Source of the DNA: Pseudomonadota bacterium
GTDB lineage: Bacteria > Desulfobacterota > Desulfobacteria > Desulfobacterales > Desulfolunaceae
Assembly: GCA_018818835.1 (NCBI GenBank)
Contig: JAHIRD010000027.1
Span: forward strand, 164,845-228,844
DNA length: 64,000 bases
Reading direction: 5' to 3'
Shown here one piece after another: positions 20,388 through 51,827 of the stretch (position 1 is the first letter of the stretch; every line of letters begins with the position of its first letter). The notes under the pieces are model-generated. The model was not told the DNA's origin. It did no database searches and saw only the letters and a list, made by a program, of their open reading frames with translations. Made by a program: the position numbers and the translations under genes.

Positions 20388-23941
<3,554 letters not shown>

Positions 23942-42133: not shown

Positions 42134-42174
42134 TCAGGAATAATTGTTCATGTGATGACGGAGGTAGAAGGATC

Positions 42175-45100
42175 ATGATTCCGAAAAATGTTATGAAAAC
42201 GGCTATTTCGATTCTGGTATGTTTAACCTTTCTTTCCTGTGGATCCGTGACAGAAAAACAGCCTGTCTTTCTGTCAGGCAACGTGGATTTCGGGAGCCTT
42301 GACCAGAAAAATCTAGGCCCTGTTTTTGTGGCGGTTCTCAGCCAGAGCCCGGTTGAAAACAATAGCTCCATCTCCGATTCCCTGCTAGATATTCAGTCCA
42401 TTGATAAAAATCAGGCCGAATTCCGGTTTCAGTTGACCGACAAAGCCATTGCCCCCGGGGATCCTGTCTATATTATTGCTTTTGCGGACAATGATTTTGC
42501 CAACGGAATTCCCCTTCCAGGCCCTGGGGATTATATCGGTTATTATCTGGACAAGGAAAATCTGAGCCCAGCCTATATTCTTAAGGCTGGAGAAAACACA
42601 GGTGTCGAAATTTCAATCACCAAGGGCGTGTTTGATTTTAAGGCAGCCCTGGCAGGACAGGTCCTTGGAAGCGAAACCGGAACCATGATGGTCTTTGCCT
42701 ATGCAGGAGAGATTAACAGCCTGGATTTTTCAAACATGGATCCATACAAGATTCTGGGATACACCCAGTTTGAAAAAGGCCCCGAACCCCAGGACTTTAC
42801 CCTGGACATTCTTCCCTATGGCTGGAATGTCCCCATTTCAGATGTTTATCTTCTCGCCTTCCTGGATAGAAATGCAAACGGCAAACCTGACGGAGGCGAC
42901 CTGTTCGGGTTTTACGCCGATGAAAACAACATGCCTAATTCATTTATCATTTATGAGGGAACCGCGCCCGGGTTTACGCTTTCCATGTCCATGGATGTGC
43001 CCGAGCCCTCGGGTTATAACCTGAGCATCCAGGGTCATATCGATGTTCCCGATGATATCCAGGCCATCATCAGAGACAAGGATCTGTTTGTTGCCCTGGT
43101 CAGTGCCGATGAAAACACGGATCTGAGTGCCCTTGCCCAGGGAGACCTGGCAAGCCTTGCCTATTATTCAAAACTTTCTTCACCTGAACGGGATTTCGAT
43201 TTTGATCTGTCCGGTACCGGACTGGCTCCGGGGGATGAGGTCATCGCCATTGTTTTTTGTGACATGAATTACCAGTCAGGCTTTCCAAACCTGGCCACGG
43301 GTGATTACATGGGTTACTATCTGGATGTGGCCAGCTTGGGCCCCGAGATCAGCCTCAAGGAAGGGGTGAACAGCGGAATTGATATTCGGCTGGACAAAAA
43401 GGTCTATGATTACAAGGCTTCCGTATCCGGTGTAATTTCCGGCACACCCGTGGGCCTCGTGTCCGTATTCGCCTATGCCGGGGAAATCAATTCCTTGGAT
43501 TATTCAGCCATTGACCCTGATAAAATCATCGCATATACACGGGTGTCAAAGACAAGCCTTGAGGCATCCTACACCCTGGATATCCTTCCCTATGGCAATG
43601 AATTACCCCTTGAAAACATTTATCTCTTTGCCTTTCTGGATACGAACGTAAATGACACTCCCGATGCGGGTGATGTCGTCGGCTTTTATACCCTTAGCCA
43701 GGGCACGCCCCAGCTGATCACAATTCTGGGAGAAGAGGCCCAGGGGTATGATATCCAGTTAAACATGGAGGTTCCCGTCCCCTCGGGTGACCAGATCAGG
43801 ATCAGTGGTTCCGTTGACATTCCTGGGGCACTGAACGAGACCCTTTCTGACAAACCGATTTTTCTCATGATGGTCAGGGCCGATAACCAGCTCGATTTCA
43901 ATGCCCTGATGGAGGGGGATGTTTCCCACCTGATCCTTTTTTCAAAATTAGCCATAGGCACCCGAACCTTTGACATAGACCTTTCCGATACAGGCCTTGC
44001 CGCAGGAGATCAGATAATTGTTCTGGCCATGGTTGATATGCAGTACACCTCAGGGTTTCCGGACATTGGGGAAGGTGATTATGTTGGATATTACCTGAAC
44101 TATGAGACCCTTGGGCCTGAACTTACAGTCAATGCGGGTGACAATAACGGCATTGTGGTCACCCTGGACAAAGAAGTCTACGACTATGAATCCTCCCTGT
44201 CAGGCAGAATCCCCTCAGGACTTACGGGAATCGCCACGGTCTTTGCCTATGCCGGAGAAATCACCAGCTCGGATTTTTCCGAAATAGACCCCAACGACAT
44301 GATCGGTTACAGCCGCCTGGTACTTACCGGTGAGGCTACGGACTATACCGTTCCCATTTTTCCCTATGGCCGCAACCTTCCCATTGAAAATGTCTACCTG
44401 ATGATTTACCTGGATGCCAATGGGAATAATCAGATGGATGCAGGTGATTCCCTGGGATTTTACTCGGATCAATCGGGGATGCCCCAACTGATCTCCATCA
44501 CGGACGGGGATCAGCCGGACCTTGATCTGGTCATGAGCATGGAAATGTCTGCGCCTTCGGGTGAAGACATTCGCCTTAGCGGACACATTGATGTGCCGAG
44601 CTCCCTGACGGGCATCATCGACAACCAGGAACTTTTCTTATTCGTGTTCAAGGCTGATGACAATATGGATATAAGCAGCCTATCATCAGGGGATATGTCA
44701 AGCGTTGCTTATTTTAAAAAACTACCCTCCAATAGCCGTGACTTCAGCGTTGATTTATCAAACACCGATCTTATGCCAGGAGACCAGGTGCTTGTGGTGG
44801 TCCTGTGCGACATGGACTATCAGGCCGGGTTCCCGAATCCCACCGTGGGGGACTATTTGGGTTACTTCATCAATGCCTCGGGCATGGGACCTGAATTGAC
44901 TCTCCTGGAAGGTTTGAACGAGGATGTGGACATCACCCTGGGCAAAGAAGTTTTTGATTATGCGGCCTCCCTGTCAGGGCAGGTCTCGGGCATGCAAACC
45001 GGTGAAGTGACTGTTTTTGCCTATGCCGGAGATATCACATCGTTAGACTTCTCCCAGTTTGATCCCAATGAAATCGTTGGGTACACCCGGATTGACAAAA

Positions 45101-46197
45101 TCAGCCCCACCCAAGCCTTTAATTTTTCCATTCTTCCCTATGGCCACAATGTGCCCATTGAAAATGTATATCTGTTTGCATTTCTGGATGATAACGCAAA
45201 CGGTGTGCCGGATGCCGGAGACAGCATCGGGTTTTATGCCAATGATCAGGGCTTGCCCAAACTTCTGACCATCAACCCGGGTAGCCAAGATAATCTGACC
45301 GTCACTCTTTCCATGGAACTCCCAGAGCCCTCAGGCTATACCATGAGTATGGAAGGGAGTGTGGTGGTGGCTTCAAGCCTTGATGTGACCAACAAACCCA
45401 TCTTTATCCTTGTGATCCGTTCCGGGGATGAGCCTGATATTTCCGCCATGATGGAGGGCAACCTGGACGATGTGGCTTATTTTTACAAAATGCTTCCCAA
45501 TACCCGTAATTTTTCCTTTGATCTGTCAGAAACAGACCTGTATCCCGGTGAAAAAGTCATGGTTGTTGCGGTCTGTGACCGGCAGTTTGTGGCGGGTTTC
45601 CCGGATATCACCGCGGGTGATTATATGGGATATTATCAGGATAAAGCCCTTATGGATGAAAGCTACATCCTAAGCCAGGGTGTCAACCATGTTGAAGGCT
45701 ACGGTGACAAGACCTTCACCTTAAATAAAATTTTGTATGAACATTCGGCCTCCATCCTTTTTCAACTGGACGATGCAAACCTCGATTCCGAGAATCCCAG
45801 TGTCTACCTGGATCCGGGCGAACATGTCACCGTGGTGGCTGTACACGAGGACGGCGTTGATTTGACAGGGGATATGTCCATGGATATGGATTATATCGTC
45901 GGTTTTGCCTCGGTTACAATCCCTGCGGGTGGGAATGACGGCCACACCTACGTCATGGATGTTCTGGCCCCCATTGACTACCGGGTGCCGGTCCAGAGCC
46001 CCTTTGCCATTGAAGATGTCTACATTTTCGCTATCTTTGACGGGAACCTGAACGGCCAGGCCGGCCAGAACAACTATGTGGGCTTTTACTGGAGGCCCTA
46101 TCTTCTGTACTACATGTACCCCAAGGTATTTTCCGAAATCATAGACGGTATAAACATTCTGGACAAAACCGTACGGTTTACGACCCAGACCATGTGA
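42175..46197 (+). CDS. giant repetitive lipoprotein, five ~258-residue repeats with Ca-type loops
   Basis: 1340 residues from ATG 42175, which has GGAGG upstream. The signal peptide ends in LTFLSCG, a lipobox with Cys22. The rest is a tandem of a ~258-residue unit. Each unit has an a-half (e.g. RLSGHIDVPSSL ... CDMDYQAGFPNPTVGDYLGYF) and a b-half (e.g. VFAYAGEITSSDFSEIDP ... FPYGRNLPIENVYL and a D-x-N-x-N-G-x-x-D-x-G-D loop). VFAYAG occurs at DNA positions 42691, 43465, 44239 and 45013, exactly 774 bp apart each time. The DxNxNG loops are also 774 bp apart. The fifth b-half is diverged. It probably sits on the outer membrane and binds calcium. Function unknown. Confidence 0.85.
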   Translation: MIPKNVMKTAISILVCLTFLSCGSVTEKQPVFLSGNVDFGSLDQKNLGPVFVAVLSQSPVENNSSISDSLLDIQSIDKNQAEFRFQLTDKAIAPGDPVYIIAFADNDFANGIPLPGPGDYIGYYLDKENLSPAYILKAGENTGVEISITKGVFDFKAALAGQVLGSETGTMMVFAYAGEINSLDFSNMDPYKILGYTQFEKGPEPQDFTLDILPYGWNVPISDVYLLAFLDRNANGKPDGGDLFGFYADENNMPNSFIIYEGTAPGFTLSMSMDVPEPSGYNLSIQGHIDVPDDIQAIIRDKDLFVALVSADENTDLSALAQGDLASLAYYSKLSSPERDFDFDLSGTGLAPGDEVIAIVFCDMNYQSGFPNLATGDYMGYYLDVASLGPEISLKEGVNSGIDIRLDKKVYDYKASVSGVISGTPVGLVSVFAYAGEINSLDYSAIDPDKIIAYTRVSKTSLEASYTLDILPYGNELPLENIYLFAFLDTNVNDTPDAGDVVGFYTLSQGTPQLITILGEEAQGYDIQLNMEVPVPSGDQIRISGSVDIPGALNETLSDKPIFLMMVRADNQLDFNALMEGDVSHLILFSKLAIGTRTFDIDLSDTGLAAGDQIIVLAMVDMQYTSGFPDIGEGDYVGYYLNYETLGPELTVNAGDNNGIVVTLDKEVYDYESSLSGRIPSGLTGIATVFAYAGEITSSDFSEIDPNDMIGYSRLVLTGEATDYTVPIFPYGRNLPIENVYLMIYLDANGNNQMDAGDSLGFYSDQSGMPQLISITDGDQPDLDLVMSMEMSAPSGEDIRLSGHIDVPSSLTGIIDNQELFLFVFKADDNMDISSLSSGDMSSVAYFKKLPSNSRDFSVDLSNTDLMPGDQVLVVVLCDMDYQAGFPNPTVGDYLGYFINASGMGPELTLLEGLNEDVDITLGKEVFDYAASLSGQVSGMQTGEVTVFAYAGDITSLDFSQFDPNEIVGYTRIDKISPTQAFNFSILPYGHNVPIENVYLFAFLDDNANGVPDAGDSIGFYANDQGLPKLLTINPGSQDNLTVTLSMELPEPSGYTMSMEGSVVVASSLDVTNKPIFILVIRSGDEPDISAMMEGNLDDVAYFYKMLPNTRNFSFDLSETDLYPGEKVMVVAVCDRQFVAGFPDITAGDYMGYYQDKALMDESYILSQGVNHVEGYGDKTFTLNKILYEHSASILFQLDDANLDSENPSVYLDPGEHVTVVAVHEDGVDLTGDMSMDMDYIVGFASVTIPAGGNDGHTYVMDVLAPIDYRVPVQSPFAIEDVYIFAIFDGNLNGQAGQNNYVGFYWRPYLLYYMYPKVFSEIIDGINILDKTVRFTTQTM

Positions 46198-46215
46198 CAC
46201 AAAAATGAATAATCT

Positions 46216-46242
46216 CCGTGGGCACGGCTGCCGTGCCCACGG
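46216..46242 (+). terminator. hairpin after the lipoprotein gene
   Basis: The arms CCGTGGGCACGG and CCGTGCCCACGG, 12 bp perfect with a 3-base loop, lie 19 bp after the stop codon. No T-run follows. Confidence 0.6.
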
Positions 46243-46252
46243 ATCGTTACCA

Positions 46253-46332: not shown

Positions 46333-46460
46333 GCACAGAGATCACGGAGAAGTGCAAAAAGCAATTTAACCATGAAATACCCGATTATACATTCAAAGCC
46401 CCACAAACCCCGCAAAATTCTCACCCCATAACCGACAACACCCACAGCCATTTTCCACAA

Positions 46461-46543
46461 CCCGCTCCCGCTGGTAGCTGAAGAACACGAAGAACACAGC
46501 GCTGCAAAGCCACAACCAAAAAAGCCTCGTCTCTCTCACAGAG
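46461..46543. repeat. direct repeat B (repeat family 2, inverted copy d)
   Basis: Starts CCCGCTCCCGCTGGTAGCTG, then GAACACGAAGAACACAGCGC, TGCAAAGCCACAACC and AAAAAAGCCTCGTCTC. It pairs with 46253-46332 as an imperfect direct repeat and borders the remnant genes. Confidence 0.75.
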
Positions 46544-46549
46544 AGAGAG

Positions 46550-46729
46550 CATGAAGTCGATTTCATTGTCAGGAAACAGGACAAATCACATATGCTTGTC
46601 CAGGTCTGTGAAACCCTGGTTGATCCCAAAACCCGCAAGCGTGAAATCACGGCCCTCACCCAAGCGATGAACGAGCTGGACCTGGACACAGGCATCATTG
46701 TGACACGCCATGCTGACATGACATCATAG
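46550..46729 (+). pseudogene. remnant of a DUF4143-type AAA ATPase (C-terminal part)
   Basis: An open frame with no start codon: EVDFIVRK, MLVQVCETLVDPKTRKREITAL, DTGIIVTR, then a stop. This is the typical C-terminal nuclease-like end of DUF4143 ATPases (EVDFVV ... LIQVCYDL ... TRKRE). Only ~50 residues of an expected ~400 remain. The last few residues overlap the hipA remnant in the opposite direction, so the junction at about 46705 is the scar of a rearrangement. Confidence 0.75.
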
Positions 46730-47331
46730 ACCGGTGTAAGGCTGTAACGCCCACCCGGCATCAAAAAGACGCTGAAATTTTTTGCATGACCGTCAATGGC
46801 TCCGAGGAGCCAGAACAAAAACTGGGTTTTTAAAAAGAGATGCCTGTCGGGAAAAGCCTGGGCCGAGCCTAAAAGGAGGGTCATGATTTTTTCCATACCG
46901 GGTCCGCCATCACTTTGATATTTCAAGGCCGGAGGGATTGATAGGGCCTGGCACATATCCTCCTGGGGAAGCCGGATCAGCCAGGACCTGTCATCGGCCC
47001 ATCGTCGGTCAAACCGCTGGACCACCAGAGCCTTGACATCTTCGAAAACCGCCATGGACGCATGGACCACAGGAATGCCAAAGGCCTTGAGGATCTTAAG
47101 GCATAACCATTCATTTTCCACGCTGTCAGTCAGATCCATATCCCCGTGATGGGTTCTTCCGATAGGAAGTTTGAGAATATGGGAGGTGGGTGTCACCCCC
47201 ACGGGCCTAATCCATCGGTCATCAATCCTTAGCAGGGCTGTCTTTTCCTGGGCACCGGCCAGGGATATGCGAAAGTCATCTTGGTCTATGCCCAGGGGCA
47301 GAGTTGCGTAATTAGGATATTTTTGGGCTTA
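46705..47331 (-). pseudogene. hipA-like serine/threonine kinase toxin remnant
   Basis: The minus-strand frame from 47331 to about 46705 carries middle HipA motifs: DDFRISLAGAQEKTALL, GVTPTSHILKLP, DRRWADDRSWLIRLPQEDMCQAL, and the catalytic-loop region LLGAIDGHAKNFSVF with SLTPVYDVMSAW. The first ~110 residues, including any start codon, and the last ~100 residues are missing. The frame that continues past 46705 shows no HipA similarity. No hipB antitoxin gene was seen. Intact HipA kinases inactivate translation factors or tRNA synthetases; this one is surely inactive. Confidence 0.8.
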
Positions 47332-47598: not shown

Positions 47599-49521
47599 AT
47601 GACTGCAAGCAGGTATGATGCAGATTCCATTGAAGTATTAAAAGGGCTTGATCCGGTAAGGCGACGTCCCGGCATGTATACGGACACGGACAGACCCAAT
47701 CATCTGGGCCAGGAGGTCATCGACAATGCTGTGGATGAGGCCATCGGCGGATTTGCCGACAAAATAGAGGTGATCCTTCACCCGGACAATTCCCTTGAAG
47801 TCAGTGACAACGGTAGGGGAATGCCTGTGGATATCCATCCGGAAGAAGGCATCACCGGGGTTGAACTGATCCTCACCAAACTTCACGCCGGAGCCAAATT
47901 CTCCAATAAGAACTACCAGTTTTCAGGGGGCCTCCATGGTGTGGGCGTATCTGTGGTCAACGCTCTATCCACACGCCTTACCGTGGAAATCAGACGGGGG
48001 GGAAACAAGTATCAGATTTCTTTTGAAAACGGATATAAAAGCCAGGAACTTGAACTCATCGGAACGGTCGGCATCCGCAACACCGGAACCACCGTGCATT
48101 TCTGGCCTGACACAGGGTATTTTGACAACCCAAAATTTTCATTAAAAAACCTCCGTCATGTTCTTAGGGCCAAAGCAGTTCTCTGCCCCGGACTCAGAGT
48201 ATTATTTCTTGATGCTGCAACCGGAGACAAAAATGAATGGTATTATGAAGATGGCCTGAAAGATTATCTTAAAGACAGCCTTTTAGAATCCGAATGCCTG
48301 CCCGAAGAACCCTTTGTGGGTCATTTTGAATCGTCCAATGAAACGGCCAGCTGGGCTGTTCTCTGGCTGCCCGAGGGGGGTGATCTGATCACGGAAAGCT
48401 ATGTAAACCTCATCCCCACTGCCCAGGGCGGCACCCATGTCAACGGATTTCGAACCGGGCTTCTTTCATCAATCCGTGAATTCTGTGATTTCAGAAAACT
48501 GCTGCCAAGGGGTGTGAAACTGGCCCCGGAAGATATTTGGGAGCGTTGTTCATACCTTCTTTCTGTCAAAATGGCAGACCCCCAGTTTTCCGGTCAGACC
48601 AAAGAACGTCTGTCTTCCCGTCAGAGCGCGGCCTTTGTCTCCGGTGTGGTCAAAGATTCCTTCAGTCTGTGGTTGAACAAAAACACGGATGTGGGTGAAC
48701 TCCTGGCTGACATGGCCATCAATAATGCCCATAAGCGTCTGAAAGCCGGGAAAAAAATAGCCCGTAAGCGCATCATGGCAGGCCCTGCCCTGCCAGGTAA
48801 ACTGGCAGACTGCACGGTTCAGGATCCCTTTAAATCAGAACTTTTTCTGGTTGAAGGCGATTCGGCTGGAGGTTCGGCCAAACAGGCCAGGGACCGCCAG
48901 TACCAAGCCATCATGCCATTACGGGGAAAAATCTTGAACACCTGGGAAGTGGACCAGGACATGATTTTAAATTCTAAGGAAATTCATGATATTTCCGTGG
49001 CCATTGGCGTGGATCCCGGATCGCCGGACCTGACCAGTCTGCGCTACGGAAAGGTATGTATCCTGGCCGATGCCGATTCCGATGGGCTCCACATCGCCAC
49101 CCTCTTGTGCGCCTTGTTTCTGAAACATTTCCCGGCCCTTGTTTCCGCAGGCCATGTGTTCGTGGCCATGCCCCCCCTTTACAGGATTGATGTGGGCAAA
49201 CAGGTTTACTACGCCCTGGATGATTCAGAAAAAAACGGCATTATCGATCGGATCAAGGCAGAAAAAAAACCGGGAAAAGTGAATGTCCAGCGTTTCAAGG
49301 GCCTGGGTGAAATGAACCCTCTCCAGCTCAGGGAAACCACCATGGCCTCCGACACTCGACGACTTGTGCAATTAACGGTGGACAGCCTGGCCATTGAAGC
49401 CGAGGAAGGGGGAGCATTCAGTGTTCTGGATATGCTTCTGTCCAAAAAACGGGCCGGGGATCGAAAGACGTGGCTTGAAAGCAAAGGGGAACTGGTCACC
49501 ATCCCGAAGGAAGAACTATGA
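47599..49521 (+). CDS. parE: DNA topoisomerase IV subunit B
   Basis: 640 residues. It starts [46 protein letters not shown]; the [18 protein letters not shown] wording is the gamma-proteobacterial ParE type rather than GyrB. Other motifs are [46 protein letters not shown] and [13 protein letters not shown], and the C-terminal [18 protein letters not shown]. It lacks the ~170-residue insert of E. coli-type GyrB. With ParC it decatenates daughter chromosomes. The stop overlaps the parC start by four bases (ATGA), so they are coupled. Confidence 0.96.
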
Positions 49522-51827
49522 ATGATTTCAGTTTGGAAGGGGTCGAACAACTCCCCTTGAAAATATTTACGGAAAACGCCTACCTGGAATATTCCATGTA
49601 CGTGATTCTGGATCGGGCACTGCCCCACATCGGTGACGGGCTGAAACCGGTTCAACGACGTATCGTCTATGCCATGTCCGAGTTGGGCCTCAAGTCCACA
49701 GCCAAATACAAGAAATCCGCCCGAACCGTGGGTGATGTCCTGGGTAAATTCCATCCCCATGGTGATTCGGCCTGTTACGAAGCCATGGTGCTTATGGCCC
49801 AACCCTTTTCCTACAGATATCCCCTGGTTGACGGACAGGGAAACTGGGGGGCACCGGACGATCCCAAATCCTTTGCAGCCATGCGCTACACCGAGGCCCG
49901 ACTTTCGGCCTATGCCCAGGTTCTGCTCCGTGAACTGGACCTGGGTACGGTCAAATGGGTGCCCAATTTTGATGGAACACTGGATGAACCCGACGTCCTT
50001 CCGGCAAGGTTGCCCAATATTCTTTTAAACGGCAGCACAGGCATCGCCGTGGGCATGGCCACGGATATCCCCCCCCATAATCTCAGAGAAGTGACCAATG
50101 CCCTGATCCATCTGCTTGACAATCCCCAGGCTTCGGTGACAGACCTCTGCCACTTTATCAAAGGTCCGGATTACCCAACGGAAGCGGAGATCATCACCCC
50201 TGCAGACAGCATCATCAAAATGTATGAAAGCGGAAACGGCAGCCTGAAAATGCGGGCGGTATACAGCCTTGAAAACGGTGATATTGTTATCACTGCGCTG
50301 CCCCACCAGGTTTCCGGTGCCAGGGTTCTGGAACAGATTGCCGCCCAGATGCAGGCCAAAAAGCTGCCCATGGTGGAGGATCTTAGGGATGAATCCGACC
50401 ATGAATCCCCCACCCGGCTTGTCATTGTTCCACGGTCCAATCGCATCGATAAAGACGCCGTGATGGCACACCTTTTTGCCACCACGGACTTGGAGAGAAA
50501 CTACCGGGTCAATATGAACCTGATCGGCACCAATGGCAAACCACAGGTCAAGCGCCTGGATGTTCTTTTAAGTGAATGGCTTGAATTCAGGCGGGATGTG
50601 GTGACCAAACGCCTGACCTACCGCCTGGAAAAGGTCAAGGACCGGTTGCATATTCTGGACGGTCTTCTGATCGCCTTTTTAAATATCGACGAAGTGATCC
50701 TTATCATCCGTAGCGAGGACAAGCCAAAACCCGTTTTGATCGAGCGTTTTGCCCTGACAGATATCCAGGCTGAGGCCATATTGGAACTTAAACTCCGTCA
50801 CCTGGCCAAACTTGAAGAAATGAAAATCAGGGGTGACCAACAGGATCTGGCAGAAGAACGCGATATGCTGGAAAAAATTCTGGGCTCCAAGGCCCGGATG
50901 AACACCCTTATCCGTAAAGAACTCAAGGAAGACGCCAAGGAGCATGGCGACGACCGTCGTTCTCCCATTGTTGAGCGCATGGAAGCCCAGGCCATGACGC
51001 CTTCGGACATCATCCCTACGGAACCCGTGACCGTGATCCTCTCTAAAAACGGATGGATCCGCTCGGCCAAGGGGCATGATTATGATGAAAGCAAAGTAAA
51101 ATTCAAGTCAGGCGACCAGATTCTGTCCACGGCCTACGGCAAAAGCGACCAGATGGTGGTGATTCTGGATTCCACAGGGCGGACCTACGCTATCCAGGCC
51201 CATGCCCTGCCTTCGGCCAGGGGGCAGGGAGAGCCAGTCACCGGCCGCATGAACATTCCACCTGAGGCCACGGTCTGTGATGCCCTGATGGGTGAACCCG
51301 AGGATCTGGTTCTCATGGCCAGTGACGCCGGATACGGATTTATCGCCAGCCTGTCGGATCTCTACACCAAAAATAGAAACGGCAAAGTTGTGCTTAGCCT
51401 TCCGGATCAGGCCCAACCCCTGAAGCCCATTAAAATCAAGGAGATGACATCAAACCTCCTTGCGGCCATCAGCAATGAGGGCCGGATGCTGCTCTTCCCC
51501 TTAAAAGACCTGCCCACACTGGCGCGGGGTAAGGGAAACAAGATCATCAATATTTCATCCCGAAGGGCAAAAGCCCGGGAGGAACTGCTCCAGACCCTTT
51601 TTATTATTCCTCCGGACAGCCAGCTGATCATTTATTCAGGAAAACGTCATTTCACCTTGAAAGAGGGCAATCTGGCCAGTTACGTTGGCTCACGGGGTCT
51701 ACGCGGGAAAAAGCTGCCCCGGGGGTATCAAAAAGTAGACAATTATGAGATTATCTTGAAGTTAAAAGACCCTGATCAGATAGATCCTATACCTGAAGAC
51801 CCGTCAGAGGATTCTGACTCAAAATGA
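49518..51827 (+). CDS. parC: DNA topoisomerase IV subunit A
   Basis: 769 residues. The breakage-reunion domain begins [47 protein letters not shown]. The catalytic Tyr is in the RYTEARLS region near residue 121. [19 protein letters not shown] and [15 protein letters not shown] are conserved (the quinolone-determining area has S and E in the standard places). A coiled coil runs from ~370 to 460, and five-bladed-propeller type C-terminal repeats follow (~505-740). It acts with ParE. The 3' end overlaps the convergent ilvE gene by nine bases. Confidence 0.96.

Follow-up and report, generated by a model that had tools for sequence, protein, structure and literature searches.

A repeat-built predicted lipoprotein associated with one type of DUF1302 outer-membrane barrel

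Introduction

Outer-membrane barrels of the DUF1302 family that occur with LolA-type proteins and HAE3/MMPL pumps have been little characterised. The available part of the description of AmeABCD from Castellaniella defragrans lists a DUF1302 barrel, a DUF1329 protein of the LolA superfamily, a COG4447 protein and an HAE3 pump, associated with monoterpenes, and the Ame cassettes contain a second periplasmic protein beside the LolA-type one (PMC6394551). In the accessible text on Pseudomonas putida, the set PP_0765/PP_0766/PP_2018/PP_2019 is required for growth on Tween 20 and was proposed, from predicted contacts, to act as a transport system (PMC10866462). BstABC of Methylococcus is presented, in the portion of its report at hand, as a sterol transporter whose BstC binds sterols and was likened by its authors to the T-component Tp0956 (PF16811) (PMC10942540). 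Here, we analyzed a 64,000-nucleotide (nt) stretch, hereafter the window, from a Pseudomonadota bacterium of the Desulfolunaceae, a relative of Desulfoluna (GCA_018818835.1, contig JAHIRD010000027.1, positions 164,845 to 228,844 of the forward strand); coordinates count from its first letter. On its plus strand, a predicted DUF1302 barrel of 490 amino acids (aa), P0002 (40661..42133), precedes a giant predicted lipoprotein of 1340 aa, P0001 (42175..46197), for which the sequence, with the last four domains modelled, predicts ten beta-sandwich domains. A preliminary description of this locus had stressed an exact 774-bp periodicity in the lipoprotein gene and proposed a two-part secretion, adhesion or transport module. 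We argue that the 774-bp spacing deserves less weight than the lipoprotein itself, which belongs to a modular family linked to one type of DUF1302 barrel and to the cassette of pump and LolA-like genes around that barrel.

Linkage of the lipoprotein to one barrel type

We searched 389 genomes of the class, 201 of them good assemblies. The lipoprotein was found in 39 genomes (24 of the good assemblies), and the barrel that usually accompanies it in 36 (search threshold E 1e-100; the same 389-genome sample is assumed from matching genome handles). Comparison of the two lists placed both in 35 genomes against 3.6 expected by chance, with a hypergeometric p of 3e-44 that ignores kinship. A single genome, G351 (60% complete), carried the usual barrel without the lipoprotein, and four (G078, G183, G201, G342) had the lipoprotein without that barrel. 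Whether the pair is conserved across genomes had been raised in the preliminary description, and it is: a barrel lies directly upstream of the lipoprotein in 29 of the 39 genomes, one of these cases being the window, where the barrel is of the other type. Among the same 39, no barrel stood directly upstream in G001, G002, G003, G005 and G078, and the neighbour could not be judged in G183, G201, G232, G291 and G342, where the match does not include the N-terminus.

The same arrangement recurred in 35 named loci, which partly overlap the surveyed genomes and of which 25 include the start of the lipoprotein and 10 do not. With the start present, the barrel was directly upstream in 21 of 25 cases, and the two genes overlapped by 11-14 nt in 18 of these 21 (more in L003, L015 and L021 under a mechanical choice of start codon). 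The barrel lies 5.7 kb downstream of the lipoprotein in L008, and none was seen within the stretches examined of the Desulfoluna loci L018, L019 and L020. The lipoprotein and one barrel type are supported as a linked two-part system across the family. The two-part idea of the preliminary description holds at that level, by co-occurrence and adjacency, with the qualification that the barrel next to the gene in the window belongs to another DUF1302 subfamily.

Pumps, LolA-like carriers and a possible transport role

An MMPL-family gene was present in 14 of the 35 named loci and a LolA-like gene in 17, with at least one of them in 19. The order MMPL, MMPL, LolA-like, barrel, lipoprotein recurred in L002, L007, L028, L030 and L032, and in L010, L021 and L033 the LolA-like gene came after, on the opposite strand. 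We scanned 20 of the 23 locus pumps and 17 of the 17 carriers, together with a pump and a carrier of the window genome. All 21 pumps matched PF03176, and all 18 carriers matched PF17131 and no other Pfam family, none of the 18 matching DUF1329. Against the HAE3 model, a pump gave a partial match of 183 bits, below the cut-off of 352. In 10 of the 35 loci (L002, L005, L006, L007, L011, L013, L014, L016, L017, L024), the lipoprotein was followed by a T-component (TAtT family) gene, an assignment Pfam-checked in L007 only, and DctP accompanied it in nine of those ten loci or similar ones. Further tripartite ATP-independent periplasmic (TRAP) transporter genes were seen beyond the T-component where the contig extends. 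The window itself has no MMPL pump, but its genome carries one on contig C178.

The pump and LolA-like genes nearby make transport the best of the three roles suggested in the preliminary description, and neither secretion nor adhesion found specific support among the gene neighbours and matches examined. We consider it somewhat probable that P0001 is an outer-membrane-anchored lipoprotein that assists a DUF1302 barrel as an arm, within a pump/LolA-like/barrel route for a hydrophobic molecule. Such a route would run from the MMPL pump through the LolA-like carrier to the barrel, with which the lipoprotein would presumably be in physical contact as its accessory. The cargo, whose direction and nature we infer, would move from the inner membrane to the cell surface or in the reverse direction, and would be hydrophobic because AmeABCD, the P. 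putida set and BstC handle monoterpenes, Tween 20 and sterols, respectively.

Barrel subfamilies and the window genome

P0002 matched DUF1302 (PF06980) with 69.7 bits (cut-off 23.2, E 3.5e-19), confirming the DUF1302-like barrel noted earlier at these coordinates. PF06980 was also detected, at E up to 0.01, in most of a set of partner barrels (20 of 22, P0002 included; two had no match). A SPOR domain was matched by two of 22 barrel open reading frames (ORFs), probably the longest (L003, L021). In structure the barrel is porin-like. P0002 was only 14-21% identical to the usual barrel in two alignments. The window genome has its usual barrel elsewhere, on contig C178, flanked on one side by an MMPL gene and on the other by a LolA-like gene; this barrel is 49% identical to that of L008 and scored 20.6 bits against PF06980, below the cut-off. 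The same split was observed in G003, where a pump, barrel and LolA-like set stands without the lipoprotein (L067) and the lipoprotein is a 100% match to a Desulfoluna locus. L008 is intermediate, its lipoprotein preceding the set by a few kb. Two further DUF1302 genes were noticed in the window genome: a third barrel type, 433 aa long, within another MMPL, LolA-like and DUF1302 set (L060, G000:C83:1-9000), and a strong match (306.7 bits) at G000:C229:8279-9850 that contains a single in-frame TGA.

The subfamily of P0002 is large (1442 hits, the best at 69%), and three other genomes that we read have members of it next to LolA-like and MMPL genes (L065, L066, L068). It occurs in 65 of the 389 genomes and shares 11 of them with the lipoprotein, where 6.5 were expected (p 0.04). 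P0002 could be a chance neighbour, as one competing explanation has it, which also takes the 774-bp spacing for a mere trace of tandem duplication without selection on length. The 54 genomes that carry this subfamily without the lipoprotein agree with chance; against it, the lipoprotein of G078, which has no usual barrel, also abuts a P0002-type barrel, in convergent orientation with a 4-nt overlap. Together with the evidence on spacing given below, we regard this explanation as doubtful. The two cases, the window and G078, suggest a partner swap to a second barrel subfamily, and P0002 may be a second partner of the lipoprotein in the window genome.

Anchor, domains and loops of the lipoprotein

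The lipoprotein gene starts 41 nt past the stop codon of P0002, with a Shine-Dalgarno-like GGAGGTAGAAGG (42160..42171, plus strand) upstream of its ATG. Lipoproteins are recognized by a signal peptide with a lipobox cysteine motif. Reading of the sequence confirmed the 1340-residue chain and Cys22 lipobox reported previously: a signal peptide (42175..42240, plus strand) ends in FLSC at residues 19-22, with F at -3 where L is usual, and Gly follows the cysteine. Cys22 is near-invariant in an 18-row alignment. From the lipobox and the Gly after Cys, P0001 is predicted to be lipidated and located in the outer membrane.

Searches of P0001 against Pfam and NCBIfam returned zero family matches, adhesive domains included. 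Its last four domains were modelled as all-beta with confidence (predicted local distance difference test 86.7, predicted template modelling score 0.78), and there is domain-level similarity to pilins and fimbrilins. This similarity, together with a variable repeat copy number as in adhesins, would suit a surface stalk or adhesin, gripping for example an insoluble substrate or particles, that is co-regulated with the barrel and works outside transport. Yet the structural likeness is to a common fold, P0001 has no Pfam domain, and the near one-to-one association with one barrel subfamily in 35 genomes is not what this explanation leads one to expect, making it quite improbable. We retain the reading of P0001 as an accessory of a transport route.

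Motif matches placed one loop in the second half of each unit, all on the plus strand: B1 (42865..42900), B2 (43639..43674), B3 (44413..44448) and B4 (45187..45222), the last located between two strands in the model. Among 165 full units of the family, a set that includes some proteins twice, 160 had residues acceptable as metal ligands at loop positions 1, 3, 5, 9 and 12 of D-x-N-x-[N/S]-x-x-x-D-x-x-D, position 1 being D in all 165. We take this ligand pattern (positions 1, 3, 5, 9 and 12) to be that of the EF-hand loop. The EF-hand_1 profile gave weak matches in 8 of 18 relatives and none in P0001. Judged by their ligand-type residues, the loops, previously called calcium-type, are candidate EF-hand-like calcium loops, and calcium would stiffen the rod that they stud.

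Periodicity of P0001

The marker VFAYAG is found at 42691, 43465, 44239 and 45013, and D.N.N..[PM]D.GD loops begin at 42865, 43639, 44413 and 45187, each step being 774 bp. These coordinates all agree with those of the preliminary description, and self-comparison of the protein ranked offsets of 258, 516 and 774 residues first to third, 258 being dominant. P0001 consists of unit 1 (residues 27-284; 42253..43026; halves A1 and B1), units 2 to 4 (residues 285-1058), a half unit A5 (45349..45729) and a divergent terminal domain B' (45730..46194), the last two with approximate boundaries, that of B' drawn partly from the model; all lie on the plus strand. Unit 2 (A2, B2) spans 43027..43800, unit 3 (A3, B3) 43801..44574 and unit 4 (A4, B4) 44575..45348.

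The claim of exact periodicity without insertions or deletions stood for units 2-4, which align without gaps at 45-50% identity (121, 130 and 116 of 258 residues identical for pairs 2-3, 2-4 and 3-4). It did not extend to unit 1, which could be aligned to units 2, 3 and 4 only with gaps, nor to the step from unit 4 to A5, which measures 256 residues, not 258, between GDYxGYY markers. Moreover, the 258-residue unit divides into two halves, each of about 129 aa, that are homologous to one another (98% probability by profile-profile comparison, E 7.5e-14, 81 columns), so that the true repeat is a domain pair; as a control, the A half against the barrel profile gave a probability of 0.08% (hhalign, with an alignment-format warning). 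Third codon positions among units 2-4 were 36-40% identical, for which reason their gap-free divergence looks old, and indels in these units were probably selected against.

Size, spread and unit history of the family

The protein search yielded 39 proteins including the query, of 813-1855 residues, some of them fragments. Lengths in the family step by about 258 residues, with one unit in forms of about 565 aa, two in 820, four in 1340-1410 and six in 1850; the 310-aa forms of G332 and G371 seem to have no full unit. The number of domains across relatives ranges from 2 to 14, about sevenfold. Members with a phylum or family on record belong to the Desulfobacterota or Spirochaetota, a few being labelled only Proteobacteria/Deltaproteobacteria. 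A distant relative of 764 aa (26-30% identity) was seen at L044/L049 (G007:C275), in the window's own taxonomic family; it stands outside our family counts.

In a tree built on 85 units (31 proteins), 26 of the 31 first units branched outside the inner-unit groups, unit 1 of P0001 representing this conserved first unit; the five exceptions, from P0012, P0017, P0022, P0025 and P0026, were closer to inner units of their own proteins. Inner units mostly clustered within lineages, with the copies of P0001 and P0004 falling together, and the tree and unit alignment mark units 2-4 as lineage-specific copies. Of the 77 units in proteins with several, 21 had their closest counterpart within their own protein and 50 in another protein at the same position class, a count inflated by close relatives in the set; the other 6 fitted neither case. 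The inner units thus look largely like lineage-by-lineage duplications.

Spacing was tallied with intervals of at least 320 residues excluded, and several locus proteins duplicate database ones. From the A-half anchor, it ranged from 250 to 296 residues, 69 of 165 intervals measuring 254, and 13 of the 47 proteins with two or more intervals had them all equal. The corresponding counts for two B-half anchors were 10 of 43 and 18 of 43, with spacing reaching 305 if the divergent terminal domain is counted. Spacing is therefore near-constant within many proteins and lineage-dependent (251, 254, 258, 260-262, up to 296 in P0029), which contradicts a constant unit length among homologues. Since spacing varies in the family and inner copies multiplied by lineage, the best reading of the exact 774 bp is mostly inheritance by duplication, with low tolerance of indels. 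A pure duplication trace would explain the lineage grouping and lineage-dependent spacing but not easily units 2-4, gap-free at such low third-position identity. Of the strong selection on unit length proposed earlier, what survives is that few indels were probably tolerated, without a family-wide rule.

Orientation of the arm

In the proposed role, the arm would point outward rather than bridge the two membranes, the weakest step of the proposal, which we prefer since relatives carry anywhere from 2 to 14 domains while the periplasm is presumably constant. Lipoproteins face the periplasm by default, and the short forms of 310 and about 565 aa would fit there, so P0001 might instead hang into the periplasm and tie the barrel to the pump or LolA-like carrier. 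It would then fill the slot of AmeC, and the available part of the Ame description does include a second periplasmic protein (PMC6394551). However, 2 to 14 domains are hard to reconcile with a gap of constant width. With beta-sandwich domains about 4 nm long, a straight 10-domain form would also exceed the periplasm, and we judge such a bridge unlikely.

Extending the outward accessory arm to its fullest form, a calcium-stiffened arm, its length set by duplication of a two-domain unit, would stand outside on the DUF1302 barrel, in sulfate reducers as well as spirochaetes, and pass greasy cargo between the surface and a shuttle made of MMPL pump and LolA-like carrier; it could also change over to a second subfamily of barrels. 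Taken as a whole this picture is rather speculative and somewhat unlikely to be right in every part. A lipoprotein tracking one barrel subfamily is nonetheless a concrete new part for the route, helps to indicate which barrels form a functional class and offers testable pairs, and its variable domain number is a natural experiment on the reach that such an arm needs.

Flanking genes in the window

HAD and radical-SAM genes lie upstream of P0002, and a broken-looking HipA-type fragment on the opposite strand, followed by parE-parC, lies downstream of the lipoprotein. The HipA_C-type fragment (269 aa, 46393-47202, minus strand) adjoins parE; its match spans residues 3-172 and the rest resembles a frame-shifted tail, giving the appearance of a decayed toxin gene. 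Right after the lipoprotein stop codon, a perfect 13-pair inverted repeat (46215-46243) scored as terminator-like for the minus strand. A gyrB-like gene and dnaN (20388-23941, minus strand) are separated by about 24 kb from parE-parC (47599-51827, plus strand).

Comparison with known systems

In the AlgE/AlgK alginate exporter, AlgE exports polysaccharide and its partner AlgK is a helical tetratricopeptide repeat protein; OprD-type porins share the likeness in fold between the barrel and AlgE. The B repeats of SdrD-type Gram-positive surface proteins offer another parallel, as CNA-B/SdrD-type repeats are tandem beta-sandwich domains, an arrangement predicted for P0001, with DxNxNGxxDxG loops. 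P0001 differs in its lipid anchor in a two-membrane cell and its two-domain unit, and had no sequence-family match to CNA-B or pilin-type repeats (0 Pfam families).

As far as the available parts of their descriptions go, the three transport systems introduced above come closer. BstABC shares an MMPL-family pump, and the T-component to which BstC is likened is of the family found downstream of the lipoprotein in the ten loci; its BstB is a phosphonate-type binding protein, and a DUF1302 barrel and repeat lipoprotein are not among the parts described there. The P. putida set includes a DUF1302 barrel and a transporter as well as a periplasmic protein, with a DUF1329 protein where PF17131 is found here; its gene numbers imply two loci, and the text at hand does not mention a repeat lipoprotein. 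AmeABCD resembles our loci in having a DUF1302 barrel, a LolA-type periplasmic protein and a pump in one cluster, plus a fourth component, and differs in that the carrier here is PF17131, not DUF1329, and the extra component a repeat-built lipoprotein. On our best reading, this lipoprotein, which has no family name in Pfam or NCBIfam, is an undescribed component of a route akin to AmeABCD.

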